Source: Deltaproteobacteria bacterium
GTDB taxonomy: Bacteria > Desulfobacterota > Desulfarculia > JACQYL01
DNA: 64,000 bases
Reading direction: 5' to 3'
Assembly: GCA_016208165.1 (NCBI GenBank)
Contig: JACQYL010000119.1
Span: forward strand, 62,947 to 126,946
The notes beneath the pieces were generated by a model. The model searched no databases. It was given only the letters and a program-made list of their open reading frames with translations, and was not told the origin of the DNA. Shown here piece after piece: positions 5,629 to 64,000 of this stretch; within the stretch, counting starts at the first letter, position 1; each line of letters begins with the position of its first letter. A program made the translations under genes and the position numbers.

Positions 5629-5629
5629 T

Positions 5630-6127: not shown

Positions 6128-6165
6128 ATACCATACGTTGTGTACGAGTTTTCGAGGACATCAAA

Positions 6166-34604: not shown

Positions 34605-34783
34605 TTATACCATCTCCTATGCTGCAGGATCCTCATTACAGGTAATCAGTGGTAACTGCGCACCCTTCTCTCGCTGAATCGAAGTCGCCTGCTGAGAGTC
34701 TTTAACCTCAATTCGTTTGGAAAAACCAACGTTCTTGCGGCCCGTTGTTCCCCCTTCTTTCACGGCATTGGGTGGAGGCTGAT

Positions 34784-35149
34784 GTGTTGGACTCTCTTCT
34801 CTCTGATTACGCTTACGTTTTGGCGTTTGTATCCGCAGGTTTTCTGTTCGCGCTGGTCCCGCTGGGCGTCGCCTTTCTAGTGAGCCCCAAAGGGGTCGGA
34901 CTCAAGAAACTGGTCAGTTACGAGTCCGGCATAGAGCCCAAAGGGCAGGCATGGATACAGTTCGAAGTCACCTACTATCTGTACGCCCTCATCTTTCTGG
35001 CCTTTGACGTGGACGTTTTGTACCTCTTTCCCGTGGTTGTGGCCTTTGGCTCTTTTCCTTGGAGGGACCTCATCGAGATCGCTATGTTTGTGGGCATACT
35101 GTCTCTGGCTTTGGCCTATGCGTGGAAGAAAGGAGTGTTCCAGTGGTAG
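34784..35149 (+). CDS. nuoA: NADH-quinone oxidoreductase subunit A
   Basis: A 121-residue complex I membrane subunit with three helices. Family motifs are [24 protein letters not shown] (residues about 44-67) and [17 protein letters not shown] chose the GTG at 34784, which has GGAGG 5 nt upstream; a TTG at 34745 in the same frame has none. It overlaps nuoB by 7 nt and opens the nuo operon. Confidence 0.9.
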
Positions 35150-35703
35150 AAAAAGCCGTGATAGAGCCCATGGTTCAATTCACAACCCTCACCCAAATCC
35201 AGCGGATTTCGCAGGCAAACTCCTTATGGCCGCTGACCTTTGGACTGGCCTGCTGCGCCATTGAAATGATGGCCGCCGGAGCCTCGAGGTTCGATCTGGA
35301 TCGATTTGGCGCAGGAGCCTTCCGTCCTTCCCCCCGCCAAGCGGATGTGATGATCGTGGCGGGGACCATCAGCAAGAAAATGGCCCCCATTATTCTCACC
35401 CTGTATGACCAGATGCCCGCCCCCAAATGGGTCATCGCCATGGGCAACTGCGCCATATCGGGCGGACCTTTTGCTTATCCAGGACAGTACGCGATTGTAA
35501 ACGGAGCAGACAAGATCCTCCCAGTTGACGTCTATGTCCCGGGGTGCCCTCCACGACCGGAGGGACTCCTTCAGGGACTTTTCGAACTCCAGGACAAGCT
35601 CACGCAGGACGGCAAAATCAATTTTCTGAGAAGATTTGAACGCAGGGAAAAAGCTCAAGAGGCAAAGCCCGGGTCATATGGGATTATCAGAGAAGAAACG
35701 TGA
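35143..35703 (+). CDS. nuoB: NADH-quinone oxidoreductase subunit B
   Basis: A 186-residue peripheral-arm subunit carrying the N2 [4Fe-4S] cluster next to the quinone site. Ligands lie in [20 protein letters not shown] and [11 protein letters not shown]. The GTG start at 35143 has AAAGGAG 8 nt upstream and overlaps the nuoA stop. The longer upstream open frame is not supported. Confidence 0.93.
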
Positions 35704-36154
35704 TCTCCTGATCAAGCTTTTCGGACCAGAAAACGTTCAGGAAGAGGATTACGAGCGCTGCGGTTTTCACCTCAGGCTCTCCCTGAGTCCCGTGGAACTC
35801 GCGCCGCTGGGCAACAGCATGCGGGATATGGGATTCGTCCTGGAGTACATAACCGCCGTAGACCGCATCACCCACCTCGAACTAGTCTACATGTTTGGTT
35901 CTTTTGAAGTTCTTTGCCGAATAAAGGTTCAAGTTGCCACGGCCAAGGGAGAAATGGTTCCGAGCCTGATGGGCTTCTTCCGCGCGGCGGATTGGCATGA
36001 GCGGGAAGTGTATGACATGTTCGGCCAAAGCTTTGCAGGGCGGGACCGGATAGAACGCATTCTGTTGCCCGACGATGCCGATTACCACCCGCTCCTGAAG
36101 GACTTTTTCAGCAAGGAGTCGGACTTCTACGAAGCTTTCGATTCGGATGGGTAA
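35678..36154 (+). CDS. nuoC: NADH-quinone oxidoreductase subunit C
   Basis: A 158-residue peripheral-arm subunit. The conserved C-terminal signature is present ([18 protein letters not shown] then [17 protein letters not shown]). The ATG at 35678 overlaps the end of nuoB by 26 nt, so translational coupling is likely. It is separate from nuoD, not fused as in E. coli. Confidence 0.9.
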
Positions 36155-36156
36155 GC

Positions 36157-37272
36157 ATGCTTCCCGGAAAGACACTGACAGGCGACACCTTCTATTTGAA
36201 CCTGGGTCCCCAACACCCCAGCACGCACGGGGTCCTGCGTCTCCTCCTGAGACTGGACGGGGAATGGATCGTCGAGGCCGACCCGATTATCGGATACAGC
36301 CACCGGGCGCACGAGCACATGGCGCAGAACCGGACGTACGCCCAGTTCTTTCCGAATACGAGCCGTATGGATTACCTCGCCGCTCTCATGTACAACCATG
36401 CATACTGTCTTGCCGTGGAAAAAGCCTGCGGTATTGCTCCTCCTCCCCGCGCCGAATACATTCGCATGATCTGCGCCGAGCTCAATCGCATATCCAGTCA
36501 TCTTCTCTGGTTTGGAACGTTCCTGCTGGACCTCGGAGGGATCACGCCTTTTCTGTACAGCTTCGACGACCGGGAAGACATTCTGGATATTCTTGGCGAG
36601 GTAACGGGCAGCCGGTTGACTTATTCCTACTGCCGATTCGGCGGCGTTCGGGACGATATCAACGACCGGTTCATCGAGCGTATTCGTGCGTTCATCCCCA
36701 AATTGCGTTCCAGGTTTAAAGACTATGACACTCTGGTGACCAAGAACGTGATTTTCGTGAACCGGACACGGAACGTGGGGGTCATATCCAAGGAAATGGC
36801 AGGTCAATACGCCGTGACGGGGCCCTGCTTGCGGGCTTCCGGCATACCGTATGATATCCGAAGGATGGAGCCCTACAGCTTGTACCCCGAAGTCGACTTC
36901 GAGATCCCCGTGGGGGAAAAAGGAGATTGCTACGACCGATATCAGGTTCGGATGGCTGAAATGGAACAAAGCCTTCGCATCATAGAGCAGGCGACGGACC
37001 GCATACCTGAAGGTCCTTGCCTTGCCTCGGGGATTCCACTGTATATCAGGCCTCCGGAAGGCGAGTACCATTTCAGCTATGAGAGCCCGAGAGGACATCT
37101 GGGAATCTATTTCGTTTCCGATGGCAGCCGGATTCCATACCGCATGAAATGGCGAACCCCTTCCTTCAGTAATTTGAGCATCATACCCGCCATTTTACCG
37201 GATACTCTGGTTGCGGACACCATCGCGATTTTGGGCAGCATAGATGTCGTGATTCCGGAAATCGACCGTTAG
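36157..37272 (+). CDS. nuoD: NADH-quinone oxidoreductase subunit D
   Basis: A 371-residue subunit related to the [NiFe]-hydrogenase large subunit and forming part of the quinone pocket. The opening [23 protein letters not shown] and the middle [16 protein letters not shown] are diagnostic. The hydrogenase Ni-ligand Cys pairs are absent, as expected for complex I. It starts 2 nt after nuoC. Confidence 0.93.
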
Positions 37273-37280
37273 GACAAGAC

Positions 37281-38300
37281 ATGGGTGACAGCCGCATCGT
37301 TCAATTGGGGGATTCCGCCTACCAGGCCGTTGTCTCATTCCTGGGAATCGATCTCCTTGTGGGTATCGTCGGATTGCTCCTCACCCTTCTGCTCGTCGGC
37401 GTGAACCCGCTGTTCCTCGTGTGGCTTGAACGCAAGGTGTCGGCGCATATCCAGCTCAGGATCGGCCCAAAAGAGGTCGGACCGTTCGGCCTCCTTCAGA
37501 CCGTAGCGGACACCGTCAAACTGATCTCGAAGGAACTCATCACTCCCCGTCCGGCCAGTCGTGTTCTGTTCGTCCTCAGCCCCATTCTCGTATTCGCTCC
37601 CACACTCGCCGCGTTCGTTGTCCTGCCCTTCGGTCAACACCTCCAGGTCCGGGACCTCAATGTCGGCGTTATTCTGATCTTTTCGTTCGCGAGCCTGAAC
37701 GTATTGGCTATTCTGGTGGGCGGCTGGGCGAGCAACAACAAATACGCTCTTCTCGGCGCCATCCGGTCGGTGGCCCAAAATGTGGCTTACGAGATCCCGC
37801 TCCTATTGTCGGCGATGAGTGTGGCCATCATGGTCGGCTCGCTCCGCATGCAGGCCATTGTTGACGCTCAGCAAACCGTTTGGTTCGTATTTTATCAACC
37901 CGTAGCGGCCATCATCTACCTGATCGGCGCCACGGCCGAAACGAACCGCGCTCCCTTCGATATCCCCGAGGCGGAAAGCGAACTCGTGGCGGGGTTTCAT
38001 ACGGAATATTCGGGCATGAGGTTCGCGCTGTTCTTTTTGGCCGAATATACCAACATGTTCATTGTGGCTTCCGTTGCTACGACCTTTTTTTTTGGAGGAT
38101 GGCGCGGGCCCTTTTGGGACGGTCCATGGTGGTTCATCCTCAAGGTATACGTCCTCATCTTTGGAGTCATGTGGGTGCGCTGGACGTTTCCCCGTCTCAG
38201 GTTTGACCAGCTCATGAATTTCGCGTGGAAGGTCCTGATTCCGCTGGCTATGGCAAACCTGCTTGTGACGGGCCTCGTGATGAAGCTGATACGAAACTAG
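37281..38300 (+). CDS. nuoH: NADH-quinone oxidoreductase subunit H
   Basis: A 339-residue membrane subunit with about eight helices, linking the quinone site to the proton channels. Signatures are [41 protein letters not shown] and the C-terminal [17 protein letters not shown]. It follows nuoD by 8 nt. Confidence 0.94.
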
Positions 38301-38310
38301 GTCCTATCCG

Positions 38311-38763
38311 ATGAATGCCGTATTCGCCTATTTTTGGGATATCCTTTCAGGCGCCTGGAGCCTGGTTGCCGGTATGGGCGTGACCCTCCGATACATGTTC
38401 AAACCAACGGTCACGGTTCAATATCCCCGACACAGACTGGAGTTGCCCGAGGCGTACAGGGGGCACATCGAGCTGGTAACATACTCCGACCTCCATTCCC
38501 ACCACTGCGTGGCCTGCGGTCTGTGTTTCAGAATATGCCCGAGCAACGTCATCAAGGTCCAGGGATTCAAAGAACGGGCATCGGACTTGAATCGTGCTCG
38601 CTTCTTCATGATTGATTTTTCCCGGTGCTCTTTGTGCGGACTCTGTGTCGAAGTTTGCCCCGTGAACGCCCTCAAGCTGTCCAAGGTATACGATCAGTCG
38701 GGCAGAAGCCGCTTTTCGGCCGTCATAGACCTTATCGAATTTCAGAAACGATCGGAAGGTTAG
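38311..38763 (+). CDS. nuoI: NADH-quinone oxidoreductase subunit I
   Basis: A 150-residue ferredoxin-like subunit with two [4Fe-4S] clusters, N6a and N6b: CVACGLCFRICPSNVI and CSLCGLCVEVCPVNALKLS. The N-terminus (WSLVAGMGVTLRYMFKPTVTVQYP) anchors it against the membrane arm. nuoJ starts immediately after its stop codon. Confidence 0.93.
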   Translation: MNAVFAYFWDILSGAWSLVAGMGVTLRYMFKPTVTVQYPRHRLELPEAYRGHIELVTYSDLHSHHCVACGLCFRICPSNVIKVQGFKERASDLNRARFFMIDFSRCSLCGLCVEVCPVNALKLSKVYDQSGRSRFSAVIDLIEFQKRSEG

Positions 38764-39339
38764 ATGGGGACCATCAGTCAATACATACGACCCGAGGTGC
38801 TCCAATACGGGGCTTTTGCGTTTATCCTGCTCCTCACCTTCGGTGGCGCCCTTCTCGCCGTTCTGCACAAAAATATCGTTTACAACGTAATGGGACTGGT
38901 CACGTCCCTGCTGGGCGTGGCCGGGATTTTCCTGTTTCTGGGCAGTCCATTCCTGGCCGTCATGGAGATCCTGATCTACGTCGGAGCGATCTGTATCGCC
39001 ATCGTTTTCGCCATCATGCTTTCGCAGCCCATGCATCTGCAAATACCTCCCCGATGGCGTCCAAAGGTTGTTCTTTCATTCCTGATCAGTGTGGCTGTCT
39101 TCGTGTCGTTCAGCGTCATCGTTTTCAAGACGTCCTGGCAGGCGGCGGTGGAAAGAGGGGAAGACTGGAGCGTTGCGAGGATAGGCGTCTTGCTGCTGAC
39201 CCGGTACGAGCTTCTGTTCGAATTGATTTCGCTCGTATTGCTGGTGGCGATCCTGGGCTCCATCATCACGGCCAGAGGGGTCCGCAGTGAGGAAGAGGAA
39301 CGGCCGGAAGTTCCGGGAGAAGGGGGTAAGACCGCGTGA
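38764..39339 (+). CDS. nuoJ: NADH-quinone oxidoreductase subunit J
   Basis: A 191-residue membrane subunit with five predicted helices. The family signature is visible as EILIYVGAICIAIVFAIML in helix 3. It overlaps nuoK by 4 nt (GTGA). Confidence 0.9.
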   Translation: MGTISQYIRPEVLQYGAFAFILLLTFGGALLAVLHKNIVYNVMGLVTSLLGVAGIFLFLGSPFLAVMEILIYVGAICIAIVFAIMLSQPMHLQIPPRWRPKVVLSFLISVAVFVSFSVIVFKTSWQAAVERGEDWSVARIGVLLLTRYELLFELISLVLLVAILGSIITARGVRSEEEERPEVPGEGGKTA

Positions 39340-39644
39340 ACAGCCTGTCTTTTTATCTTTTTGTAGCGCTGGCCCTGTTCGGGATCGGCCTGTTCGGGCT
39401 CCTGCAGCGTCGGTCTCTGATCGGAATGCTCATCAGCATCGAGCTGATGCTCAACGGCGCAAGCATCAATTTTATGGCGTTCAACCGGTTCCTGGCACCG
39501 GATCCGGCGGTCGGGCAGATCCTGACGCTGTTCGTAATGGGGATAGCTGCAGCGGAAGCGGCCATTGCGCTCAGTTTGATCCTTTCCCTCTTCAGGAGAA
39601 TCCGCTCGATCAATATCGAACGGGCAGACCATTTCAGAGGATAG
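39336..39644 (+). CDS. nuoK: NADH-quinone oxidoreductase subunit K
   Basis: A 102-residue three-helix membrane subunit. It shows the conserved pattern LIGMLISIELMLNGASINFMAF with the proton-path Glu, and AAEAAIALSLILSLFR with the second Glu. The start is the GTG overlapping the nuoJ stop. Confidence 0.93.
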   Translation: MNSLSFYLFVALALFGIGLFGLLQRRSLIGMLISIELMLNGASINFMAFNRFLAPDPAVGQILTLFVMGIAAAEAAIALSLILSLFRRIRSINIERADHFRG

Positions 39645-39651
39645 ACGACCC

Positions 39652-41550
39652 ATGACCACGCAAGCTCCAACGGAATTCCAGCTTCTCGTCGTGCTGACCG
39701 CCATGGGTTTGCCCTTGGTTTCCTTCTTTGTCCTCTTCTTCTGTTTGAGAAAGCACACGGCCTCTTCCCTGAGCGTAAGTCTGTTCTGCTCGGCAATCCC
39801 TCTGGTCTGCGCCTATTATCTGTTGATCTCCCTCTGGGACTCGAAGGCGCCCATTCTATTTGAAACGATCTGGATGAGGGGCGGGGAAGCCAGCGTCTCG
39901 TTCGGCTTTTTGTTGGATCCCATCAGCCTGCTGATGCTGTGTATCGTGGCCACTATCAGTTTTCTGGTGCAGGTGTATTCTTTGGGTTACATGGCGGGGG
40001 ACCCGGGCATCACGCGCTATTACAGCTTTCTGTCCATATTCGCCTGGTCCATGATCAGCATGGTGGTGGCTCCGGGGCTGATGCAGCTCTACGTTTTCTG
40101 GGAACTCGTGGGACTCTCGAGCTATCTTCTCATCGGGTTCTGGCATCACAAGTTCAGCGCATCCCAAGCCGGGAAAAAAGCGTTCGTCATGACGCGCCTG
40201 GGAGACCTGGGATTCTTTCTCGGCATTGTCATTCTGCTCCTGAACTTCGGCGACCTGTCCATCCTGAACCTGAATCACGAGGCATTGCACAAGCTCCCAC
40301 CCTCGCTGGTCACCACCTGCGCCGTGCTGATTTTTTGCGGAGTGATCGGTAAGTCGGCTCAATTTCCACTGCTTACATGGCTTCCCGACGCCATGGAAGG
40401 TCCCACTCCCGTGAGCGCGTTGCTCCACTCGGCCACGATGGTGGCGGCGGGAGTGTACCTGACCGGCCGTCTTTTCCCATTCTTCCAAGGGTCTCCCGAG
40501 GCTCTGGCGGTGGTTCTTCTCATAGGCGCCTTGACCATGATCCTCTCCTCGACCATGGCCATGGTGGCAAGAGATATCAAGCAGGTATGGGCGTATTCCA
40601 CGGTAAGTCAGTTGGGTTATATGCTGATGGGTCTGGGCGCCGGAAGCTATTTCAGCGGTATATTCCATCTGACCACGCACGCCGCCTTCAAAGCGCTTCT
40701 GTTTCTCTGCTCGGGGGTCTTCATTCACCATTTCGAGACCAACGATTTTTTTCAAATCTCGAGACGAGGGGGCCGCAGCCTGAAAATCCCCATGATCGCC
40801 ATTACCGTTGCCGGGTGCGGTCTGGCGGGAATATTCCCATTCGCGGGTTTCTTCTCGAAGGAAGCGGTGCTGGGCGCATTGGTCCATCTTCCGAATAAGA
40901 CATGGATCATCGCCGGACTCGCGGGCGCTTTCATGACGGCGTACTATACCTTTCGCCTGCTGTTTGTTCTCTGGCTGCCGCGGACCGGGTCCGATACTTC
41001 CTCCGAACACGGTCACCACGCGTCCGGTCACGCCTCTCACGCGGAAGCCGGTTACTGGGCCATGGCCGTTCCGCTGTTGATCCTGGCGGCGGCTACTGCG
41101 ATTCTGGGATTCACGGGCGGCCCGCTTGAGTCCTTTCTCGTTTCCCACGGCGCACATGCGGCCCCGGCCCATGCTGAATGGCTCGTGTGGGCCTCGATTG
41201 TGCTCGTGGTTTCAGGGGTGGGACTGGCGTGGTTCGAGTTTGGACGGAAAGCCGCGCGACAGGAAGGCTTCTTGAGCCGGTTGCCGTTCCTGGAAAACCT
41301 GTTTATGAATCGATGGTACATCGACCATTTCTACAGGAAGTTCGTTGACTACGCGATTTACGGAGGCTTCAGCCGCGCATTCACTCTGAATGACCGCCGC
41401 GTGATCGACGGGGCCGTTGACGGACTGTCCAAAGCCATCCGCGGAAGCGGTTGGCTTATGAGCTTCAGTCAAAGCGGGAAACTTCAATATAACCTCTTTT
41501 TTCTTGCATTGGGTATCGCTCTGCTGGGTCTGTTTTTTCTGTTCGTATGA
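39652..41550 (+). CDS. nuoL: NADH-quinone oxidoreductase subunit L
   Basis: A 632-residue antiporter-like membrane subunit. Conserved segments are FGFLLDPISLLMLCIVATISF, FWELVGLSSYLLIGFW, KSAQFPLLTWLPDAMEGPTP and HATMVAAG-type SALLHSATMVAAGVYL. A His-rich loop (EHGHHASGHASHAEAG) lies near residue 450. The C-terminal lateral-helix region is present, so it is complete. Confidence 0.94.
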   Translation: MTTQAPTEFQLLVVLTAMGLPLVSFFVLFFCLRKHTASSLSVSLFCSAIPLVCAYYLLISLWDSKAPILFETIWMRGGEASVSFGFLLDPISLLMLCIVATISFLVQVYSLGYMAGDPGITRYYSFLSIFAWSMISMVVAPGLMQLYVFWELVGLSSYLLIGFWHHKFSASQAGKKAFVMTRLGDLGFFLGIVILLLNFGDLSILNLNHEALHKLPPSLVTTCAVLIFCGVIGKSAQFPLLTWLPDAMEGPTPVSALLHSATMVAAGVYLTGRLFPFFQGSPEALAVVLLIGALTMILSSTMAMVARDIKQVWAYSTVSQLGYMLMGLGAGSYFSGIFHLTTHAAFKALLFLCSGVFIHHFETNDFFQISRRGGRSLKIPMIAITVAGCGLAGIFPFAGFFSKEAVLGALVHLPNKTWIIAGLAGAFMTAYYTFRLLFVLWLPRTGSDTSSEHGHHASGHASHAEAGYWAMAVPLLILAAATAILGFTGGPLESFLVSHGAHAAPAHAEWLVWASIVLVVSGVGLAWFEFGRKAARQEGFLSRLPFLENLFMNRWYIDHFYRKFVDYAIYGGFSRAFTLNDRRVIDGAVDGLSKAIRGSGWLMSFSQSGKLQYNLFFLALGIALLGLFFLFV

Positions 41551-41595
41551 GCCGGTGAACCATTTTAGCGTATGTACGGATCGGGTCGTGAAATC

Positions 41596-43062
41596 ATGGT
41601 GACGTCTTTTCCATACTTGTCGGCCATCTGTTATTGCCCGCTAGTGGCGGTGCTGATCATCCTGTTCCTGCCACCCGACCGCAAAAACGCCATTCGCTGG
41701 ATTTCCGTCGCATCGGGGGCGGTGTCCCTGGCTCTGACACTGGCCATCTACGTAATGTACGACAGGAGCGTAGGTGGATTCCAGTTTGTCGAGAGGGCCA
41801 CATGGGTAGAGAGTTTAGGGATTCACTACTACTTCGCCGTTGACGGGATCAATCTCCCCATGGTGCTGCTGACTAGCATCACGTTGCTCACCGGCGTGTG
41901 GACCATGTGGGGACTCGAAACAAGAGTCAAAGAGTATTTTGCGCTGATGCTGTTCATGGTGGTGGGCGTATACGGCGTGTTCCTATCCCTGGACCTGTTT
42001 TTCCTTTTTGTTTTTTACGACGTGTCCCTGTTCCCCATGTACCCCTTGATCGCGATCTGGGGTACTACACGCAAGGAATACGGCGCGTTGAAGTTGACGC
42101 TGTATTTGCTGGCCGGCTCGGCCCTGGTGCTTCCCGGAATTCTTTACGTGTACTTCCAAGCATGGATCTTCACCTTCGACCTGGTGCAGATTGCTCAGGT
42201 GGGCTTGCCGAAGAACGCACAATTGATCGCCTTTTTTCTGTTTCTCTTCGGATTCGGCGTGCTGGCGGGCCTATGGCCATTCCATACGTGGTCGCCCGTG
42301 GGCCACGTCGCCGCCCCCACGGCGGTTTCCATGATTCACGCCGGCGTGCTCATGAAGCTTGGAGCTTATGGAGTTCTGAGGGTCGGCATGTTCCTGTGTC
42401 CCCTGGGGTTGGAGCATTGGGCGCCCCTTATGGCGGTTCTGGCCACAATCGGAATCGTTTACGGAGCCTTTGTCGGTCTGGCTCAGACCGATTTGAAATA
42501 CGTTATAGGCTACTCCTCGGTAAGTCACATGGGCCTGGTCAGTCTGGGCCTGGCCACGGCGACCGTGGGCGGCATCAACGGAGCCGTGTTCCAGATGTTT
42601 TCCCACGGCGTTATGACGGCGCTGCTCTTTTCGAGTGTCGGCCATCTGTACGACAAAACCCACACCAAAATGATCCCGGAACTGGGTGGAATGGCGAAGG
42701 TGATGCCCGCCACCAGTTTCTTCTTCATCTTTGCGGCCCTGGCCGGCATCGGAGTTCCCTGTCTGTCCAGCTTTTGGGCCGAGCTTCTGGTCTTTATCCA
42801 TGCCTTCAGGGTGTATCCGGTATTAGGACTCTTCGCCATTCTCGGACTCGTGGTCAGCGCCCTGTTTATGCTTAGAGTGGCTCAAAAAGCGTTTTATGGG
42901 GAAAAGAACACGCGTTTTGCCGACAAGCCGGACATGAGCCTCATTATGCGATTTCCCCGCGCCATGCTGGCTGGAACCCTGCTGCTCTTCGGACTATTAC
43001 CCCGTCTGATGCTCGATCTGATCAACGGTTCCGTGTCCGTTTTCGTGCAGGGATTGAAATGA
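41596..43062 (+). CDS. nuoM: NADH-quinone oxidoreductase subunit M
   Basis: A 488-residue antiporter-like membrane subunit. Motifs are YYFAVDGINLPMVLLTSITLL, LFFLFVFYDVSLFPMYPLI and WPFHTWSPVGHVAAPTAVSM. In the usual FEWMLIP-type segment the conserved Glu is replaced: FVFYDVSLFPMY has Asp where most NuoM proteins have Glu. An alternative start at 41572 adds eight residues; neither start has a clear ribosome binding site, and 41596 fits the family length better. Confidence 0.9.
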   Translation: MVTSFPYLSAICYCPLVAVLIILFLPPDRKNAIRWISVASGAVSLALTLAIYVMYDRSVGGFQFVERATWVESLGIHYYFAVDGINLPMVLLTSITLLTGVWTMWGLETRVKEYFALMLFMVVGVYGVFLSLDLFFLFVFYDVSLFPMYPLIAIWGTTRKEYGALKLTLYLLAGSALVLPGILYVYFQAWIFTFDLVQIAQVGLPKNAQLIAFFLFLFGFGVLAGLWPFHTWSPVGHVAAPTAVSMIHAGVLMKLGAYGVLRVGMFLCPLGLEHWAPLMAVLATIGIVYGAFVGLAQTDLKYVIGYSSVSHMGLVSLGLATATVGGINGAVFQMFSHGVMTALLFSSVGHLYDKTHTKMIPELGGMAKVMPATSFFFIFAALAGIGVPCLSSFWAELLVFIHAFRVYPVLGLFAILGLVVSALFMLRVAQKAFYGEKNTRFADKPDMSLIMRFPRAMLAGTLLLFGLLPRLMLDLINGSVSVFVQGLK

Positions 43063-43158
43063 CGGGATTTCATCGATGACGAAAAACCGAGGTGCTGACT
43101 CGGACTCAAGTAGTTTCAGGGAATCCGGGGCGCAGAAACATACAAACGGGTCTAAACC

Positions 43159-44592
43159 ATGACTTCGTCGATCCTTCTCTTTCTACCCGAACTGTTCTAT
43201 CTGATGCTGTCGTTGCTGCTGTTCTTTGCATCCTTGAGCGACCATCCGAATCCACGGCGAACGTATCTTGTGCTTCTAGTGTTATCCGCCGTCGGAATCG
43301 TTCTAAGCGCGCTCTCGTTGAACCGGGAAGGCTTCCTGTTCTTCGACGCCTACAGGGTGGACCTGTTCAGCCAGATCTTCAAGTTGTTCCTATCGGTGGC
43401 CTATTTTCTGGTGATCACCGCCTGTAGTGAACTCAAGGGAGTTCGAGAGAGATACCATTCTGAATTTTTCCTGTTTCTGACCACGTGCACCGCCGGCATG
43501 ATGCTCATGGTGAGCGCCGTCGAGCTGATGACCATATACATCTCGTTGGAGCTTTCTTCGTTCTCTCTGTATATCCTCGTGCCCATGCGCAAAGGGAAAA
43601 ACTTCGACGTCGAGGCCGGGGTGAAATACCTCTTTATCGGTATGACGGCCTCGTGTGTCATGCTTTTCGGAATGAGTTATGTGTTCGGAGTAATGCACAC
43701 CACGTATCTTTCCGAGATGGCGGGCAAATTGCCTCTGGTCATACGGGAACCAGGGGCCATGATCGGCCTTCTGCTTCTCTTGTCGGGCTTTCTGTTCAAA
43801 CTGGCGTCCGTTCCTTTCCACTTCTGGGCGCCCGACGTGTATCAGGGCGCGGCCAACCGGGTAACCACTTTCATCGCCACGGTCTCGAAGATAGCCGCAG
43901 TGGCTCTGTTGATCCGGTTGACCTCTCTCGTGGGCGTTCCCAGCAAATACCTTACGGATGCGCTGACCATTCTGGCCGTGGTCTCGATGTCGCTGGGCAA
44001 TCTGGTGGCCATCGTACAGAAGGACCTGAAACGGATGCTGGCGTACAGCGCTATCTCCCATGCGGGATATATCATGGTGGGCATCATCAACATGACCGAT
44101 CTGGGTTACTCGTCCGCGGTTTTTTACATTGCCGCTTACGCTCTCATGAATTTCGCGGCTTTTATGGTAGTCGTACAACTTGCCGCGGAAGGCCAGGATT
44201 TGAGAATTGCGGATCTGGCCGGTTTGAGCCGAAGATCGCCCCTATTGGCCTTGACATTGATGATGGCGTTGTTCTCGCTGGCCGGCATCCCTCCCACGGT
44301 CGGGTTCACAGGGAAATTTCTCGTTTTCGCCGCCGCCGTGGAAAACGACCTCTTGTGGCTCGCGATCTTCGGGATGGTCAATGCCACAATAAGCCTTTAC
44401 TACTATCTGATGGTGATCAAAGCGGCCTACATTGTCGAACCGGAACAGGAGGAGCCGCTGGTTCAAATCAGCGGCCCCATCCGGCTGCTTAATTACACGC
44501 TGATTTCGGCCATGATCTATCTGGGGGTCTTTCCCACGCAGCTGTATGACATCGCACATGAAGCTGTTCGGACTCTGCTTATGGGGAGATAA
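43159..44592 (+). CDS. nuoN: NADH-quinone oxidoreductase subunit N
   Basis: A 477-residue antiporter-like membrane subunit. Motifs are YISLELSSFSLYILVP, KLASVPFHFWAPDVYQGA and RMLAYSAISHAGYIMVGI. It is separated from nuoM by 96 bp, the largest gap in the operon. The end of the gene contains the GGGGAG that serves the next start codon. Confidence 0.93.
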   Translation: MTSSILLFLPELFYLMLSLLLFFASLSDHPNPRRTYLVLLVLSAVGIVLSALSLNREGFLFFDAYRVDLFSQIFKLFLSVAYFLVITACSELKGVRERYHSEFFLFLTTCTAGMMLMVSAVELMTIYISLELSSFSLYILVPMRKGKNFDVEAGVKYLFIGMTASCVMLFGMSYVFGVMHTTYLSEMAGKLPLVIREPGAMIGLLLLLSGFLFKLASVPFHFWAPDVYQGAANRVTTFIATVSKIAAVALLIRLTSLVGVPSKYLTDALTILAVVSMSLGNLVAIVQKDLKRMLAYSAISHAGYIMVGIINMTDLGYSSAVFYIAAYALMNFAAFMVVVQLAAEGQDLRIADLAGLSRRSPLLALTLMMALFSLAGIPPTVGFTGKFLVFAAAVENDLLWLAIFGMVNATISLYYYLMVIKAAYIVEPEQEEPLVQISGPIRLLNYTLISAMIYLGVFPTQLYDIAHEAVRTLLMGR

Positions 44593-44595
44593 TCC

Positions 44596-45423
44596 GTGTT
44601 CAATCCTGACGACACTCATTCGGCCGTTCGGCTCGCCGGCAGTCCGATCGCGGGCATATCGCTGGTGGGCGGCCTGCTCAAGCCGCTTTTCCGGAAGAGG
44701 AAGGAACAGCTCGAAGAGGCCATCCGCCCCGTTCCTGCAAGAAAACCGGCCGGACCCGATTTGAAAGGACCGGCCCACTACACGTTTTGCTCACATCCGA
44801 TGTGCCGTTGCAGTTCAGGAGAGCTTATCGGGGAGGTCCGTAAACAGGCAAAAACCATGGGGCTAAGCCTGACCTTCGAGCCCACGCTGACCCTTTGCTC
44901 GGGCGCCTGTTCCAAGGGGCCCTTTGTCGGAATGCCTGACAACAGAGTATTTTATCACGGATTGAAGCCTCGCCGCGCCCGGCAACTACTCGAAGAAACG
45001 TCCGTTAAGGGTCATATGCTGTTTCCGTTCCTGCTCCTGGACCCCACCACAGTCGCGGACAGCCGCGTGTATTTCGACTGGAGGGAGTCGGTCCTGGTGG
45101 CCATGGAACCCGACTATTGCGTGGTGTCTCTGGTCACCTACCTTTTCGAGCTGAATGCGTCCGAATCCTGCGGCAAATGCTTCCCGTGCAGGTTCGGCGT
45201 ACACAAGTTGGGACGTTTGCTTCGAGAACTTTTGGCAGGAAGAAACGAAGATATCCATATCGAGGAGGTGGCTGAAACGGCCGCCGCCATGAGTAAGGGG
45301 GGGTACTGCGAATTCGCCGAGAAGGTCACGGCCCCCGTGCGCCTGGCGCTCCGGGAGCGAAGAGAGGATTTCGAACGACATCGCACTGAAGGCTGCTCCG
45401 CCGAGGAACGCTTCTTGACGTAG
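44596..45423 (+). CDS. NuoE-ferredoxin / truncated NuoF fusion lacking the NADH/FMN domain
   Basis: A 275-residue protein starting at GTG 44596, 3 nt after nuoN. After a basic N-terminal tail come thioredoxin-like [2Fe-2S] ligands of NuoE type: C65-x4-C70 and C101-x3-C105. The second half matches only the C-terminus of NuoF: ESC192GKC195FPC198RFG plus C238 form the N3 [4Fe-4S] site with family spacing. The roughly 300-residue NuoF domain that binds FMN and NADH, with its Gly-rich loops, is missing. The gene is intact and sits in the operon, so this looks like a designed architecture, not decay. It probably keeps the Fe-S wire while another subunit supplies the flavin. Confidence 0.85.
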   Translation: MFNPDDTHSAVRLAGSPIAGISLVGGLLKPLFRKRKEQLEEAIRPVPARKPAGPDLKGPAHYTFCSHPMCRCSSGELIGEVRKQAKTMGLSLTFEPTLTLCSGACSKGPFVGMPDNRVFYHGLKPRRARQLLEETSVKGHMLFPFLLLDPTTVADSRVYFDWRESVLVAMEPDYCVVSLVTYLFELNASESCGKCFPCRFGVHKLGRLLRELLAGRNEDIHIEEVAETAAAMSKGGYCEFAEKVTAPVRLALRERREDFERHRTEGCSAEERFLT

Positions 45424-45467
45424 CCCGGATCCTTTGGGGCCGGAGGACTACAGGGGAATATCCGCCC

Positions 45468-48400
45468 ATGGAAACGCAGAAAATAACGCTCTTCATAAAC
45501 GGAAAGACCATCGAAGTCCCGGAGGGCTGCACGGTCCTCGATGCGGCGGCGCGGGCGGGCGTCCGGATACCCACACTATGCAATGATGGAAGGCTGGCTC
45601 CGGCTGAAGCCTGCCGGTTCTGCCAGGTCGAAATCGAAGGAAACGAACGGCCGGTTACCGCCTGCTCGACAAAGGCGAGCCAAAACCTCTCCGTCACCAC
45701 CGAATCCCCGACCCTTATGCGAGATCGCAAGACGATCCTATCCCTGCTTCTCGAGGATCATTACGGGGACTGTTTTCCTCCTTGCAGCGAGCGCTGCCCG
45801 GCCAACATCGACATTCAGGGCTACCTGGCCCTCGTAGCGCGAGGACAGTATCTCGAGGCCTGCCGTCTGATTCGGCGCACCAATCCGCTTCCGCTTACCT
45901 GCGGCCGCGTATGCCCCCATCCATGTGAAGCCCAGTGTCGTCGAGGGAGAGTCGACGAACCGATCAATATCAACCATATCAAACGCTTTGCAAGTGATAT
46001 CGCCTACCGGACGCCGGAACTTCTCAACCCTCCCAGGGCCCCGCTCACCAACAAGCGAGTGGCCGTGATCGGCGGAGGACCGGCCGGGTTGACCGCGTCG
46101 TATTTTCTGGCGATGTACGGTCATTCACCCGTTGTTTTCGAAAGCATGCCGCGCTTGGGAGGTATGCTGAGGTACGGCATACCTGAATACCGTCTGCCCA
46201 AAGCCGTTCTCGATCGGGAAATCGATGCCGTTCTTCGAATGGGAGTGGAGGTCCGAACCGGCGTTTCCTGGCCCAAGGATCTCACGCTCGAAGGGCTGAT
46301 CCATCAGGGCTTTGACGCCGTGTTTCTCGCATTGGGCGCATGGACGAACCACAGGCTCGCCGTGGAAAACGAACATCTGTCGGGCGTATTTCCCGGCACC
46401 ATCTTCCTGAATGAGGTGGCCACCGGGCGAAAAACGGACATCGGGCGAAGGGTGGCCGTCATCGGCGGAGGAAATACGGCCATGGATTGCGCCCGTACGA
46501 GCCTGCGACTCGGTGCGGCAACCGTGACCGTATATTATCGTCGTTCGCGAAACGAAATGCCGGCCCAGGACATCGAAGTCGAGGAAGCGATGAGGGAAGG
46601 CGTCCGGATGGAATTCCTCACCGCACCGGAGAAGATTCTGGGGGACAACGGTCAGGTCACGGGCATGGAATTCGTGCGAATGGAACTCGTGGACGCCGGT
46701 CCTTCGAGCCGGCCCCGACCCCGGCCCATCCCCGGCTCTGAAGAACAGGTGGCTCTGGATACGATCATCGTTGCCATCGGGCAGACCCCTGAATCTCATC
46801 TCTTTGGGGAAGACTCCGGAACCCGGGCATTAAGCCTGGACAAACGTGGACTGGTTCAAGTGGACAGTCTGACGGGTCAGACCAGCATCGAAAACGTCTT
46901 TGCCGCCGGCGACCTCACCAGCGGACCGGCTACGGCCGTCGAAGCCATCGGATCAGGACGGCGGGCGGCGGAAGCTATCGACCGTTTTCTGCGGGGATTG
47001 CCCTTGACACCGCCGGCTCCGTTTCTGTTTTCAAAAGGCATTCTCAAAGAGGTGGACGAAGCGAATTTCGCGCAACGGGAGAAGATCCCCAGAGAGAAAA
47101 TGCCCGAACTACCCGTCGAGGATCGTGAAGGGAATTTCCGGGAGATCGAATTGGGTTTGACGGAAGAACAAGCCCGGACGGAAGCCAACCGATGTCTCTC
47201 CTGTGGATGCATGGCCTTTGCCGATTGCCGTATCCGGGATGTGGCCCATCTGCTCGGAGAAACCAAGAAACTTGTCCAAATAAAACCGACCCAGCCGTAT
47301 CGCATCCTGTCAGACCATCCTCACATTGTCATCGATGACAACAAATGCGTGGTGTGCCGCTTGTGTGAACGGGCTTGCGCGACCTACCACGGTCGTTACG
47401 CCGTAACCGTGGAGCTTGAACCGGTCGGACAGTTGGAGGTCTACCGTTCCCACCGGACTCGGATCAACCGTCAGTGCAACGACTGCGGTCTTTGTGTGAG
47501 CGTGTGCCCAACGGGAGCCCTCACGTACAAAACCCTCTGGTCCAAGCGGGGACCCTTCCCCGAGGAAAAGGCCGACACCGTGTGCAACCTGTGCTCGCTG
47601 GGATGCGGTCTCAGTGTGGCTTGCATTGGGGAACATACGTTGTCCATCGATTCTCCGGACCGTCCCCCGAACGTTGGACACCTGTGCGAGCGCGGACGAT
47701 TCGAGCTTTTGTCGTTGCGCGACGGAGATCGGCGGATCACTCGCCCTCTGGTGCGAAGGAACGGCCGCCTCGAGGAGGCGGGTTGGGATGAAGCCTTCGA
47801 CGCCATCGCCGGGAAGATCGGCGAACTGAAGCAAAGCGCAGGATCGAACGCCCTGGCGGGTCTGACGTTCGGGAGAGGCACTCTCGAGGAATTGTACCTG
47901 TTTGCCAAGCTCGTCCGAATCGGTCTGTTCACCGATCGTTTGGACATGGTGGGACCGGGCATGGAGCGGCCCTTTTCCAGGAAGTTTCTATCCGGAGTGA
48001 CCCCGCAACCATTTATGCCGCCTTACGACGAGATCGAAAAGCAGGACGTGGTGATCCTGTTCGGCCCCGCCCCGGAAAACGATCTTCGTCTCCTGGAACC
48101 GGCCTTGCATCGTCTCATTCAAAACGGTGGGAAGCTCATGTTGGCAGGCCGGGAAAACGGTCCTTTTCCGGAGTTCTCGGATCAGGCCGATGTTCGCAAG
48201 TTGCCCGGCGGACTCGCCGCCGTTCTGGAGGCGATTGGAGAAACGGGGGCATCCGACGCGATACACACGAACTCGAGCGAGCGGAAATCCATGATGTGCC
48301 TGGTGAGCGAGGCCGGCTTGACAGAACAGGATGTCGAACCGCTCAAGCGGCTGAACGAGCTGATGAGGAACCGCAGGGGAATGTGGGGCCTGATTCCCGC

Positions 48401-48950
48401 TGCTCCCAACGGCGCCGCCCTGTGGAAGGCCCCGCTGTCCCTGGTGTATCCCTGTGGCGATGACAAGCGGGAACGCAAAAACCGTTGCACTTTAAGAGAC
48501 TTGTGGGCGAGGGACCTTCCGGAGGTAGGGAGCGGTTCCGCGGACCGGATCCTGGCGGAACTTGAAGCCGGGCGCATAAAGGGCTTGGTGCTTCATTCCG
48601 GTCTCAACCCCGAAAAAGAGCGCATCTCCAACAGGCTGAGCGGAGCATTGAACCATCTCGATTTCCTCGTTCTGCTGACGTTCTGTCATGAACCCCTCGT
48701 GGAACACGCTCACGTAGTGTTGCCTCGATGCCTGTGCCTTGAAAGCGAGGGCGCGTTCGTCAGGGGCGACAGCCAAACAATCAGATGCTCTCCGGCCGCG
48801 GCGCCGCCAGCCGGGCTGCTTCCCGATTGGCGCGTTTTGGGTGAGATCCTGCAGCGTATGGATGGTCCGGCGCCCTTCGAAACCCTGGCCAAGGTGCAGG
48901 AAGAGATGAGCGTCCTCGAACGGGAAACAGGCGGGGGGGCACATGGTTGA
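45468..48950 (+). CDS. NuoG with inserted GltD-type FAD/NAD(P) module
   Basis: A 1160-residue fusion. Order: NuoG-type [2Fe-2S] domain (C38, C49, C52, C66); a HYGDCFPPCSERC Cys cluster; a GltD/NfnB-like Cys-rich and flavin module (about 95-600) with FAD loop GGGPAG at 202-207 and NAD(P) loop GGGNTAMD from 333, plus YRRSRNEMPAQD; two [4Fe-4S] motifs (CVVCRLCERAC from 627, CNDCGLCVSVC from 670); the MopB [4Fe-4S] site (C706-x2-C709-x3-C713); then a molybdopterin-like NuoG domain to the end (AHVVLPRCLCLESEGAFVRGD). It directly follows the NuoE/NuoF' gene. Together they look like a complex I input module in which NAD(P)H is oxidised at a GltD-type FAD. Confidence 0.88.
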   Translation: METQKITLFINGKTIEVPEGCTVLDAAARAGVRIPTLCNDGRLAPAEACRFCQVEIEGNERPVTACSTKASQNLSVTTESPTLMRDRKTILSLLLEDHYGDCFPPCSERCPANIDIQGYLALVARGQYLEACRLIRRTNPLPLTCGRVCPHPCEAQCRRGRVDEPININHIKRFASDIAYRTPELLNPPRAPLTNKRVAVIGGGPAGLTASYFLAMYGHSPVVFESMPRLGGMLRYGIPEYRLPKAVLDREIDAVLRMGVEVRTGVSWPKDLTLEGLIHQGFDAVFLALGAWTNHRLAVENEHLSGVFPGTIFLNEVATGRKTDIGRRVAVIGGGNTAMDCARTSLRLGAATVTVYYRRSRNEMPAQDIEVEEAMREGVRMEFLTAPEKILGDNGQVTGMEFVRMELVDAGPSSRPRPRPIPGSEEQVALDTIIVAIGQTPESHLFGEDSGTRALSLDKRGLVQVDSLTGQTSIENVFAAGDLTSGPATAVEAIGSGRRAAEAIDRFLRGLPLTPPAPFLFSKGILKEVDEANFAQREKIPREKMPELPVEDREGNFREIELGLTEEQARTEANRCLSCGCMAFADCRIRDVAHLLGETKKLVQIKPTQPYRILSDHPHIVIDDNKCVVCRLCERACATYHGRYAVTVELEPVGQLEVYRSHRTRINRQCNDCGLCVSVCPTGALTYKTLWSKRGPFPEEKADTVCNLCSLGCGLSVACIGEHTLSIDSPDRPPNVGHLCERGRFELLSLRDGDRRITRPLVRRNGRLEEAGWDEAFDAIAGKIGELKQSAGSNALAGLTFGRGTLEELYLFAKLVRIGLFTDRLDMVGPGMERPFSRKFLSGVTPQPFMPPYDEIEKQDVVILFGPAPENDLRLLEPALHRLIQNGGKLMLAGRENGPFPEFSDQADVRKLPGGLAAVLEAIGETGASDAIHTNSSERKSMMCLVSEAGLTEQDVEPLKRLNELMRNRRGMWGLIPAAPNGAALWKAPLSLVYPCGDDKRERKNRCTLRDLWARDLPEVGSGSADRILAELEAGRIKGLVLHSGLNPEKERISNRLSGALNHLDFLVLLTFCHEPLVEHAHVVLPRCLCLESEGAFVRGDSQTIRCSPAAAPPAGLLPDWRVLGEILQRMDGPAPFETLAKVQEEMSVLERETGGGAHG

Positions 48951-60861: not shown

Positions 60862-61743
60862 ATGATCTTAGTCGGCGAAGGCATTCACATGATTTCCAAA
60901 AAAATTGGCGGCGCCGTCGATAGACGGGATCCGGAACCGATTCGGGAACTGGCGCGTCTGCAGGCCGAAGCCGGTGCGGATTATCTGGACTTGAATCTGG
61001 GTCCCCTGACCAAAAAACCCGGGGAAACAGCTCGATGGATCGCCAACACCGTACAGGAAGCAGTGGACCTTCCCCTATGTATCGACACGCTCAATCCGGT
61101 GGCCCTGGAAGCAGTATTGGAAGTCTGTAAAAAGACTCCGATGATCAATTCAGCCAACGGAACCCAAAGAAGCAAGGAAACCATCCTCCCCCTTGCCCGG
61201 AAATTCTCCGCTGATGTGATCATGATGACCATTAACGACGAGGGTATGGCCATCGACCCTGATGAGCGCTTGGAAATGGCCATGGAACTTGTCGAGGAAG
61301 CCAATAGCATGGATATCCCCAGCGACAAGGTCTGGGTCGACGCCGTGCTTATGCCCGCCTGTGTGAATCAGGAGGACATCCTGCGCTATTTCGAATTCGT
61401 CAAAATGTTTCCCGAGGCATTGCCTGAAGCAAAAACCATAACCGGTCTGTCCAACATCTCGAGTTGCGGCACGCCCACCGACGTGCGCGGCCTGCTAAAC
61501 CGGACCTTTTTTGTCATGCTCAACCGCTACGGCCATTCCGCCGTCATTGCCGATGTGTTGGACAAGGAACTGATTCAACTGAATCAGGGGGGGCTGCCTG
61601 ATCTGGAAACGCTTATTCATCGCGCGATGGATCAGGAAACCATCGATATGGGAAGCCTTTCCGAGACAGAAATAAACTATGTCAAAACGGTCAATCTGCT
61701 CATGGGAAATCAGTTGTATTCACATTCATGGTTGGAGGAATAA
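60862..61743 (+). CDS. acsE: Methyltetrahydrofolate:corrinoid/Fe-S protein methyltransferase
   Basis: A 293-residue TIM-barrel enzyme of the Wood-Ljungdahl pathway that passes the methyl of methyl-tetrahydrofolate to the corrinoid/Fe-S protein. Family features are AGADYLDLNLGP, LPLCIDTLNP and ANGTQRSKE, and near the end the pattern TGLSNISSCGTPTDVRGLLN. It is the first gene of an acs/cdh run with cdhD 27 nt downstream. Confidence 0.92.
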   Translation: MILVGEGIHMISKKIGGAVDRRDPEPIRELARLQAEAGADYLDLNLGPLTKKPGETARWIANTVQEAVDLPLCIDTLNPVALEAVLEVCKKTPMINSANGTQRSKETILPLARKFSADVIMMTINDEGMAIDPDERLEMAMELVEEANSMDIPSDKVWVDAVLMPACVNQEDILRYFEFVKMFPEALPEAKTITGLSNISSCGTPTDVRGLLNRTFFVMLNRYGHSAVIADVLDKELIQLNQGGLPDLETLIHRAMDQETIDMGSLSETEINYVKTVNLLMGNQLYSHSWLEE

Positions 61744-61770
61744 CGGCTTTGTTAAAAGGAGAGGCCTTTT

Positions 61771-62679
61771 ATGGATTTTGAAATTCCCAAGGAAGCATAC
61801 AAGTCCTCGGTGATGGAGGTCATACTGGGAGGTGGCTCGCATGCTCTCAAAATCGGAGGCGAAACCGCGCCCGCTTTCCATTTCTTCGAAGGAACCTGGC
61901 CCAATCCGCCGAGATTCGCTTTTGAAGTCTTTGATATGCAACCCACGGATTGGGACGCTACCCTCCTGGACTACTATCAGGACGTCATTCACAGCCCATC
62001 GGAGTGGGCCCGAAAATGTGTGCATGCCTACGGCGCCGAGATCGTATGCCTCCAGATGGTCAGCACGGATCCCATTGAAAAGGATACATCGCCGGCGGAA
62101 GCGGCCGATCTTGTCAAAAGCGTTTCCGAAGCTGTCGACGTCCCGATTATTGTCTACGGAACGGGCGCTGAAGCTAAGGACGCCCAGGTCTTGACGAAGG
62201 TGGCCGAGGTTTGCGCGGGGAAAAACCTTTTCCTGGGCCCTGCCTTGAAAAGCAACCTGGACGCGATTGGAGAGGCCGCTCTTGCGTTCGGTCACGGCGT
62301 GGTTGTTCAGACGGCCATGGAACTCCCCGTGGCGAAAGAGTTGAACATGAAACTCGTAAAGAAGGGCTTCCCGGCGGACAAAATCATATATGACCCGCTA
62401 AACCCTCCCCTGGGCTATGGAATGGAATACGCCTATTCCGTCATGGAGAGAGAAAAACTGGCCGCCGCGTCTTTCGGTGACCCGAATCTCCGGATGCCGC
62501 TGTTGGCCAACATGGGCAAAGGATGCTGGGAAACCAAAGAGGCCAGGGAAAGCGGAGAAAAAGGGATCCTCTGGGAGGCCATGACAGGCCTTTCGTATCT
62601 TCTGGCCGGAGCAAACATTTTGATACTAAGACACCCCGAGGTCTACAAGACCTTAAAGAAAATATGTCGAGGTGAATGA
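61771..62679 (+). CDS. cdhD: CODH/ACS corrinoid Fe-S protein small subunit (delta)
   Basis: A 302-residue delta subunit of the acetyl-CoA decarbonylase/synthase complex (equivalent to AcsD), forming the corrinoid protein with the gamma subunit. Family stretches are VILGGGSHALKIGGE, VCLQMVSTDP and IYDPLNPPLGYGMEYAYSVMER. AAAGGAGAGG precedes the start. It overlaps the next gene by 1 nt (TGATG). Confidence 0.92.
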   Translation: MDFEIPKEAYKSSVMEVILGGGSHALKIGGETAPAFHFFEGTWPNPPRFAFEVFDMQPTDWDATLLDYYQDVIHSPSEWARKCVHAYGAEIVCLQMVSTDPIEKDTSPAEAADLVKSVSEAVDVPIIVYGTGAEAKDAQVLTKVAEVCAGKNLFLGPALKSNLDAIGEAALAFGHGVVVQTAMELPVAKELNMKLVKKGFPADKIIYDPLNPPLGYGMEYAYSVMEREKLAAASFGDPNLRMPLLANMGKGCWETKEARESGEKGILWEAMTGLSYLLAGANILILRHPEVYKTLKKICRGE

Positions 62680-64000
62680 TGTCGAAGGGCGAATTTAAGA
62701 AGAAAGCAATCGGGGAAATCATACGCGCCGATCAAAATTGGGAACCGGTCGGGCCGACTCCCATGCCTGACTCGGCGGAACTACGCAATTGGGATTTACG
62801 TCTGATGCAGACGTACAAACCCTTTTATGCCCCTGCTTGCGACCTCTGCTGCTGGTGCACGTACGGAAAGTGCGATCTCACCGCGGGTAAGAAAGGCGCA
62901 TGCGGCATCAACATCTCCGCCCAACAGGCCCGGCAGTTTCTCCAGCAGACCTTGGCCGGCTGCTCGGCCCACGCGGCGCACGCGGCGCACATGATCGATT
63001 ACCTGATTGAAAAACACGGGCCCGATTTTAAGCTCGATCTGGGTAAAGGCATTTCCACCGAGGCGCCGATCATTCGCAATGTCGTGGGACTGAAGCCGGA
63101 AACGTTGGCGGATCTCAAAAAAGCCCTTCAATATGTGGAAGAACAGCTGGTCCATGCCGTTTCCGCCACCCACACGGGGCAGGAAGGATCCGACCTCGAT
63201 TTCAACTCCAAAGCCCTTCATGTGGGCATGCTCGATTTTGTAGCCATGGAAGCCGCGGACCTGGCCCAGATTGCGGCTTATAAGTATCCCTCCTCTGAAA
63301 TCGACACCCCCTTTGTGGACATAGGATGGCGTTCCGTTGATCTCGAGAAAGCGCTGATCCTATGCATCGGCCACAATGCCGCTACATCTAATTCGGTGGT
63401 TGAATACATCGAACAACACGGTTTATCGGACAAGGTCGATGTGGCCGGAATCTGCTGCACCGCGCTCGATACGACCCGGTATTCGCAGAGCGCCAAAGTG
63501 ATTGGTCCACTCTCCCGCCAGCATTTTTACGTCAAGAGCGGACTGGCGGATGTGATTCTGACCGACGAGCAATGCGTGTGGACCGACATGCCGGAGGAGG
63601 CCCGTAAGACGGGTACGCCGCTTATTGCGGCATCCGATAAGGCCTGCTACGGACTGGAAAACGTGTCGGGCAGATCCGCGGAGGAGATCGTTCGAACGGT
63701 TGTGGACGAAGATAAGCAGGTGCTCATCCTGGATCCGGAAAAAGCCGCCCGGGTGGCTGTTGAAGTGGCTCTGCGGAGAGCCCGCTCCAGGAAAAAGGAA
63801 CTGGTGTCTCCGGACCAGGTTCCCATGCTCGCCGAGGCTTGCAAAGGATGCGGTCTTTGCTCCCGTGTATGCGCCAACCTGCTGCCGATCGGCGAAGCCA
63901 TGAAGGCCGCGTCGAAAGGCGACATCGAGCCCCTGAAAAAGGTGTTCGACAAGTGTATCGGATGCGCCAAATGCGAACAGGAATGCCCCAATGACGTGCC
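62679..64000 (+). CDS. cdhA: CO dehydrogenase/acetyl-CoA synthase alpha subunit, archaeal type (partial)
   Basis: The first 440 residues; the frame is open to the window edge. N-terminal cluster ligands read CDLCCWCTYGKCDL then KKGACGINISAQQAR, as in archaeal CdhA and not bacterial AcsA/CooS. Later come ILCIGHNAATSN, GICCTALDTTRYS and, near the right edge, the two ferredoxin-like motifs CKGCGLCSRVCANLLP and CIGCAKCEQECP that mark CdhA. The start at 62679 has GAGGT 5 nt upstream and overlaps the cdhD stop. It oxidises CO or reduces CO2 at a Ni-Fe-S centre. Confidence 0.92.
   Translation, partial: MSKGEFKKKAIGEIIRADQNWEPVGPTPMPDSAELRNWDLRLMQTYKPFYAPACDLCCWCTYGKCDLTAGKKGACGINISAQQARQFLQQTLAGCSAHAAHAAHMIDYLIEKHGPDFKLDLGKGISTEAPIIRNVVGLKPETLADLKKALQYVEEQLVHAVSATHTGQEGSDLDFNSKALHVGMLDFVAMEAADLAQIAAYKYPSSEIDTPFVDIGWRSVDLEKALILCIGHNAATSNSVVEYIEQHGLSDKVDVAGICCTALDTTRYSQSAKVIGPLSRQHFYVKSGLADVILTDEQCVWTDMPEEARKTGTPLIAASDKACYGLENVSGRSAEEIVRTVVDEDKQVLILDPEKAARVAVEVALRRARSRKKELVSPDQVPMLAEACKGCGLCSRVCANLLPIGEAMKAASKGDIEPLKKVFDKCIGCAKCEQECPNDV

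Follow-up and report, generated by a model that had tools for sequence, protein, structure and literature searches.

A nuo operon closed by a trimmed NuoF-like protein and a StnC-type subunit: a putative NADPH-linked variant of complex I in a deltaproteobacterium

Complex I is usually described as NADH-driven. In the 64,000-nucleotide stretch of DNA analysed here (the window, from contig JACQYL010000119.1 of an anaerobic Deltaproteobacteria bacterium) a nuo operon lacks the NADH/FMN domain, which raises the question of where electrons would enter the encoded enzyme. The gene order is nuoA, B, C, D, H, I, J, K, L, M, N (approximately 34745-44592), followed by two genes that we call EF′ (44596..45423, 275 aa) and G′ (45468..48950, 1160 aa); all these genes lie on the forward strand. 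EF′ starts with a GTG codon 3 bp past the nuoN stop, and a spacer of 44 bp separates it from G′. No promoter-like site was found in this spacer, where the promoter/terminator scan did no better than shuffles. Decay or a frameshift of the two genes was considered and rejected: as an earlier note on this DNA had stated, both reading frames are intact, and their Fe-S ligands are conserved among relatives. The same features, together with the conservation of the arrangement, bear out the earlier view of the pair as a coherent input module. The ORFs of the operon include no further nuoE, nuoF or nuoG, which also agrees with that note. In a whole-genome domain search the 51K FMN-binding domain was found in seven copies, none of them on the contig of EF′ and G′.

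The Q and P modules are complete, with NuoA, B, C, D, H, I, J, K, L, M and N all present. The nuoA gene (34745..35149) was recognized as an ORF whose homologues in relatives occupy the same place in the operon, and nuoB (35146..35703) by its ORF and homologues, its N2 cysteines being present by eye. Assignment of nuoC (35636..36154), nuoJ (38764..39339) and nuoK (39336..39644) relied on the ORFs and the operons of relatives; the start codons of nuoA and nuoC are uncertain. The product of nuoD (36157..37272) matches Complex1_49kDa, and that of nuoI (38311..38763) has two intact CxxCxxCxxxC motifs, corresponding to clusters N6a and N6b. The tested pumping residues are intact in NuoH (37281..38300; key glutamates conserved with Escherichia coli), NuoL (39652..41550; equivalents of E144, K229 and K399) and NuoN (43159..44592; equivalents of E133, K217 and K395). 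The exception is NuoM (41572..43062), which has Leu at the position of E. coli K234 and Asp at that of E144. This trait is shared by the canonical complex I encoded on contig C11 of the same genome and by all EF′-bearing operons except those of family f15.

The earlier note had proposed a search of the genome for a separate nuoF, and would have taken a canonical nuoEFG that co-purifies with this complex as refutation. The first half of this applies: a canonical nuoEFG does exist, but it lies inside its own, separate and complete complex I operon on C11 (nuoA, a nuoBCD fusion, nuoE, F, G, and H to N), whose NuoF has a complete FMN domain. In the operon studied here nuoD is a separate gene, in contrast to the nuoBCD fusion of C11; BCD-fused complex I has been reported in four classes of Thermodesulfobacteriota/Desulfobacterota (PMC12361115), which would place the organism in that phylum.

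In Pfam searches EF′ matched the N3 domain of NuoF (NADH_4Fe-4S, PF10589, E 4.8e-18) and, below threshold, 2Fe-2S_thioredx (E 0.034). The scan, extended to E values up to 1, found no FMN, SLBB or C-terminal 4Fe-4S domain, so the earlier statement that the NADH/FMN domain is missing holds. The N-terminal thioredoxin-like [2Fe-2S] domain (C65, C70, C101, C105) with the adjoining linker corresponds to 44773..45045, as judged by a profile match to the HydB N-terminal domain and by ligand conservation. The NuoF-type N3 [4Fe-4S] domain (C192, C195, C198, C238), assigned by PF10589 and ligand conservation, corresponds to 45091..45381. Both sets of cysteines are kept across EF′ homologues, although in six sequences one [2Fe-2S] cysteine sits a few residues away from its usual place; in this alignment the sequence from genome G025 ends at the border of the aligned region, before its N3 part.

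EF′ had originally been described as a NuoE domain joined to the tail of NuoF. We abandoned this description. With a nine-sequence profile, solved HydB-type chains match EF′ in two stretches, the N-terminal [2Fe-2S] domain plus linker and the N3 domain, and a single-sequence phmmer search with EF′ recovered the same two stretches; a separate NuoE was absent among the matches listed. Because the HydB-type chains cover both halves and the linker, EF′ is better read as a trimmed NuoF of this type: from its sequence it looks like a HydB/StnB-type NuoF minus the internal FMN/SLBB and the C-terminal ferredoxin domains. HydB, StnB and BfuB have in common with EF′ the N-terminal [2Fe-2S] domain, the linker and the N3 domain in one chain, whereas the FMN/NAD domain, the SLBB domain and the C-terminal ferredoxin domain, which all of them possess, are absent from EF′. 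The predicted model of EF′ (pLDDT 82, pTM 0.75) was compared with 9mqx_B by VIA-align. The alignment spanned residues 26-554 (Z 15.4, 188 aligned residues), with an rmsd of 15 Å, which indicates that the two domains of EF′ are placed differently than in 9mqx_B.

The Pfam order of domains in G′ is Fer2_4, Fer4_20, Pyr_redox_2, 4Fe-4S, Molybdop_Fe4S4 and Molybdopterin. The [2Fe-2S] domain (45477..45707; C38, C49, C52, C66; Fer2_4, E 5.8e-18) is followed by a GltD-like FAD/NADP(H) module with two [4Fe-4S] sites (45774..46997), delimited by Pfam and by alignment with StnC. A CxxCxC-x5-C site (47193..47228; C576, C579, C581, C587) is conserved in five G′ homologues and aligned in StnC. Two [4Fe-4S] ferredoxin motifs (47328..47519; C627-C637 and C670-C680) and a Molybdop_Fe4S4 site (47568..47702; C706, C709, C713, C740) were identified by Pfam and ligand conservation, and the C-terminal part is a molybdopterin-fold domain (47733..48854; PF00384, E 6.6e-21), presumed to carry no cofactor. 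All checked Fe-S ligands of G′ are conserved in relatives. An AlphaFold prediction for G′ was of low confidence (pLDDT 43) and was set aside.

The earlier reading of G′ as a NuoG with an embedded GltD module is confirmed by this domain order, but the fusion is not a new one. A five-sequence profile of G′ matches StnC of Sporomusa ovata over its whole length (8oh5_C, E 3e-227; profile positions 6-1147 to StnC 3-1099), and likewise subunit A of the bifurcating Nfn-ABC complex of Caldicellulosiruptor (9bov_A, E 1.5e-250); Thermococcus NfnA was matched over most of its length. By these end-to-end alignments G′ is a StnC homologue whose gene belongs to a complex I operon, and the insertion of GltD into NuoG is an already known architecture. 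No full-length StnC-type protein other than G′ was found in the whole genome. At 3538-8043 of the window a GltD-like flavoprotein of 625 aa is encoded in a cluster with a molybdopterin oxidoreductase and a 4Fe-4S protein. StnC and Nfn-ABC subunit A share with G′ the domain order [2Fe-2S]-GltD-4Fe-4S-FdhF-like, the Fe-S ligands, the FAD/NADP(H) module and the lysine that ligates the FAD-proximal cluster. Two differences from StnC were seen. The position of StnC C114 is occupied by Ile in G′, and G′ has an extra cysteine, C145, four residues ahead of the C149/C153/C157 set of the FAD-proximal cluster; C145 is invariant in the five G′ proteins, whereas the solved relatives have Ile or Leu there.

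The lysine bears on the suggestion, made in the earlier note, of a bifurcation-like input. K172 of G′ occupies the position of StnC K170 and is invariant in the five homologues, whereas the NfnB chains of Thermotoga and Pyrococcus, in which the FAD is the bifurcating flavin, have at this position a Glu that serves as ligand of the FAD-adjacent cluster. NfnB-like bifurcation at the FAD of G′ is thus disfavoured. In StnC electrons follow a linear NADPH-FAD-FeS path; NADPH reacts at the FAD, which is described as non-bifurcating, and bifurcation takes place at the FMN of StnB (PMC10482914). This FMN is the very part that is missing here, and the absence of the FMN core makes bifurcation unlikely. 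The other part of the suggestion, entry of electrons at a GltD-type FAD, possibly from NADPH, fares better: the module takes the place of the NuoF FMN site, the NADP(H) motif YYRRSRNEMPA is retained in G′ and conserved in relatives, and R242 aligns with StnC R239. This motif and the fact that its closest characterised homologues, StnC and NfnA, oxidise NADPH make NADPH the likely substrate of G′.

We therefore arrive at a reading to which we give somewhat better than even chances: the operon would encode a 13-subunit variant of complex I, a proton-pumping, non-bifurcating NADPH:menaquinone oxidoreductase with EF′ as a relay or docking adaptor. NADPH would reduce the FAD of the StnC-like G′, and electrons would pass through the Fe-S clusters of G′ to NuoI (N6a/N6b), then to NuoB (N2) and to the quinone, with coupled proton pumping. 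EF′, carrying its [2Fe-2S] and N3 clusters, would have been kept as the adaptor after removal of the NADH/FMN domain, which in Bfu enzymes forms the bifurcating core. We infer the non-bifurcating character of the FAD, menaquinone as acceptor, physical assembly with complex I and the direction of electron flow. The putative exit from G′ to NuoI is weakened by the description of the C1/C2 clusters in the FdhF-like domain of StnC as a non-functional branch (PMC10482914).

StnC works with a soluble, FMN-bearing bifurcating StnAB core, whereas G′ is encoded with complex I and without an FMN subunit. EF′ and G′ could in principle be merely co-transcribed with the nuo genes and work together as a soluble enzyme linked to NADPH, perhaps a transhydrogenase whose FMN subunit is encoded at another locus. 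The soluble nature of the StnC complex (PMC10482914) fits this explanation, as do several NuoF/HydB-type FMN proteins encoded on other contigs of the genome and the occurrence, in genome G338, of a full-length G′ relative at a distance of about 5 kb from the nuo genes. We nevertheless regard it as improbable: the linkage to nuo is found in many families, the nuo operon would otherwise have no N-module at all, EF′ keeps the N3 domain of NuoF without the FMN, and the contig of G′ has no gene for an FMN domain.

The distribution of EF′ was examined in relatives. EF′ was found in 12 of 63 genomes of the same class. When the phylum was sampled evenly, 24 of 395 genomes had it, in most cases at the end of the nuo genes. 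No EF′ was detected at E 1e-18 in 198 genomes of another phylum, a sample without a positive control, and a contig scan with the EF′ profile through one generic NuoF motif returned ordinary NuoF loci. EF′ and NuoN distances are correlated (r 0.86); this fits stable co-inheritance, and the correlation may reflect shared descent alone rather than interaction.

What follows EF′ varies. In at least four other genomes EF′ is the last gene of a nuoABCDHIJKLMN set and is followed by a complete StnC-type G′. Three others have a fragmentary G′, which is split over two contigs (G037), cut at a contig end (G041) or broken (G023). In seven genomes EF′ comes last with no N-module partner after it, and in a further seven the gene after it encodes a plain NuoG-like protein, which in G253 is in two pieces. 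These NuoG partners score as formate dehydrogenase alpha subunits, but at the position of the Mo ligand (Cys or selenocysteine) they have Trp by eye, and a role as active formate dehydrogenase was rejected. In one of these genomes (G338) a 1206-aa G′-like protein ([2Fe-2S]-GltD-NuoG; locus L213, 3285-6905) is encoded beyond the nuo operon ending with EF′ and plain NuoG. In the three genomes of family f95 EF′ has a long, apparently low-complexity C-terminal extension of approximately 230-380 aa, rich in Ala, Glu, Pro and Lys; an extra domain was considered for these long proteins, but Pfam gave none. Nuo membrane-arm genes were not seen beside EF′ in G035 and in family f22. At the four f22 loci EF′ lies between an AICAR-transformylase-type gene and FTHFS, FolD, CODH and HdrA-type genes.

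Genome G210 has yet another layout: NuoE, a NuoF-GltD fusion whose FMN domain is intact, then EF′ and NuoG. The fusion (loci L192/L215, 1858-4968) is a 1036-aa protein consisting of a HydB-like NuoF and a GltD module, encoded between nuoE and EF′. This layout implies that EF′ is more than a substitute for NuoF. Moreover, since EF′ ends nuo operons without any GltD, NADPH cannot be the sole donor of EF′-type complexes.

EF′ may mainly be the place where a soluble one-electron donor such as ferredoxin or flavodoxin docks and delivers its electrons. The NADPH site of G′ would then be a second port, with both feeding the enzyme or with ferredoxin and NADPH exchanging electrons with the quinone pool. 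The closing position of EF′ in nuo operons with plain NuoG, or without NuoG and flavin, is consistent with such a port, and in G210 its place beside a full FMN-bearing NuoF-GltD fusion points to an added adaptor rather than a mere replacement. The C1 and HdrA gene neighbourhood of f22 and the proposal that 11-subunit complexes are docking platforms for various donors (PMC11238625) point the same way, whereas the loss of the HydB C-terminal ferredoxin-type clusters from EF′ and the lack of a ferredoxin gene in the operon speak against it. We consider a ferredoxin port at this locus rather unlikely, yet EF′ as an adaptor for exchangeable donors, ferredoxin included, is a serious rival because EF′ also occurs without a flavin partner. 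Generalized, the adaptor idea would make EF′ a flavin-stripped NuoF by which, in many anaerobes of the phylum, the 11-subunit complex I becomes a socket for interchangeable donors, a possibility that we put forward tentatively, at less than even chances. The donors of such a socket, to be taken just as tentatively, would be the StnC-type NADPH module here, and plain NuoG, NuoF-GltD or unknown soluble donors elsewhere.

The NADPH:menaquinone oxidoreductase reading implies a direction. CODH/ACS (Wood-Ljungdahl) genes are located at 60862-64000 and on the continuation of the contig, 12 kb downstream of the operon; the cluster comprises genes for a pterin-binding methyltransferase, CdhD, Prismane/CODH, CdhC, an ACS C-terminal domain and two DUF166 proteins. 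The enzyme might work mainly in reverse, with the proton motive force driving electrons from menaquinol to NADP+ for biosynthesis or CO2 fixation. Proximity of the CODH/ACS genes, the reversibility of complex I and the presence of a second, canonical complex I for NADH would all suit this alternative. However, nothing in the sequence sets the direction, and in organisms with CODH/ACS the pathway may just as well operate oxidatively, yielding NADPH; we assign mainly reverse operation a small probability.

No published description of the EF′ plus G′ arrangement was found in the open-access literature, and the NADPH-linked variant can be compared with three known types. The canonical 14-subunit complex I has the same Q- and P-module genes; it has NuoE/NuoF and NuoG, whereas the present operon is without NuoE/NuoF and has a StnC-type protein replacing NuoG. 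The 14-subunit Nuo-Bfu of the Geobacter type likewise belongs to anaerobes and has a modified N-module, but a full FMN-bearing BfuABC set is encoded midway in its operon, and its predicted donors are NADH plus ferredoxin (PMC9304861), whereas the FMN domain is absent from the present operon and contig. The survey of Nuo-Bfu was defined by a BfuB with the IPR011538 FMN domain inside a 14-gene nuo operon (PMC9304861), a requirement that excludes EF′. The 11-subunit complex I-like enzymes, e.g. of Desulfitobacterium (PMC11238625), share nuoABCDHIJKLMN without an NADH module but do not have the two extra subunits; the present operon adds both, with an explicit NAD(P)H flavin site. The common electron donor of the 11-subunit complexes is still an open question (PMC11238625).

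In summary, a conserved complex I operon from which the FMN/NADH domain has been removed and to which a homologue of an NADPH-oxidising subunit has been added offers a concrete, testable donor. The N-module appears to be exchanged like a plug-in part, which bears on energy conservation from NADPH in anaerobes and on the evolution of complex I, and suggests that rewiring can open complex I to electron donors other than NADH. If EF′ is indeed a general adaptor, the locus would answer, for one lineage, which donor feeds a complex I without an NADH module.
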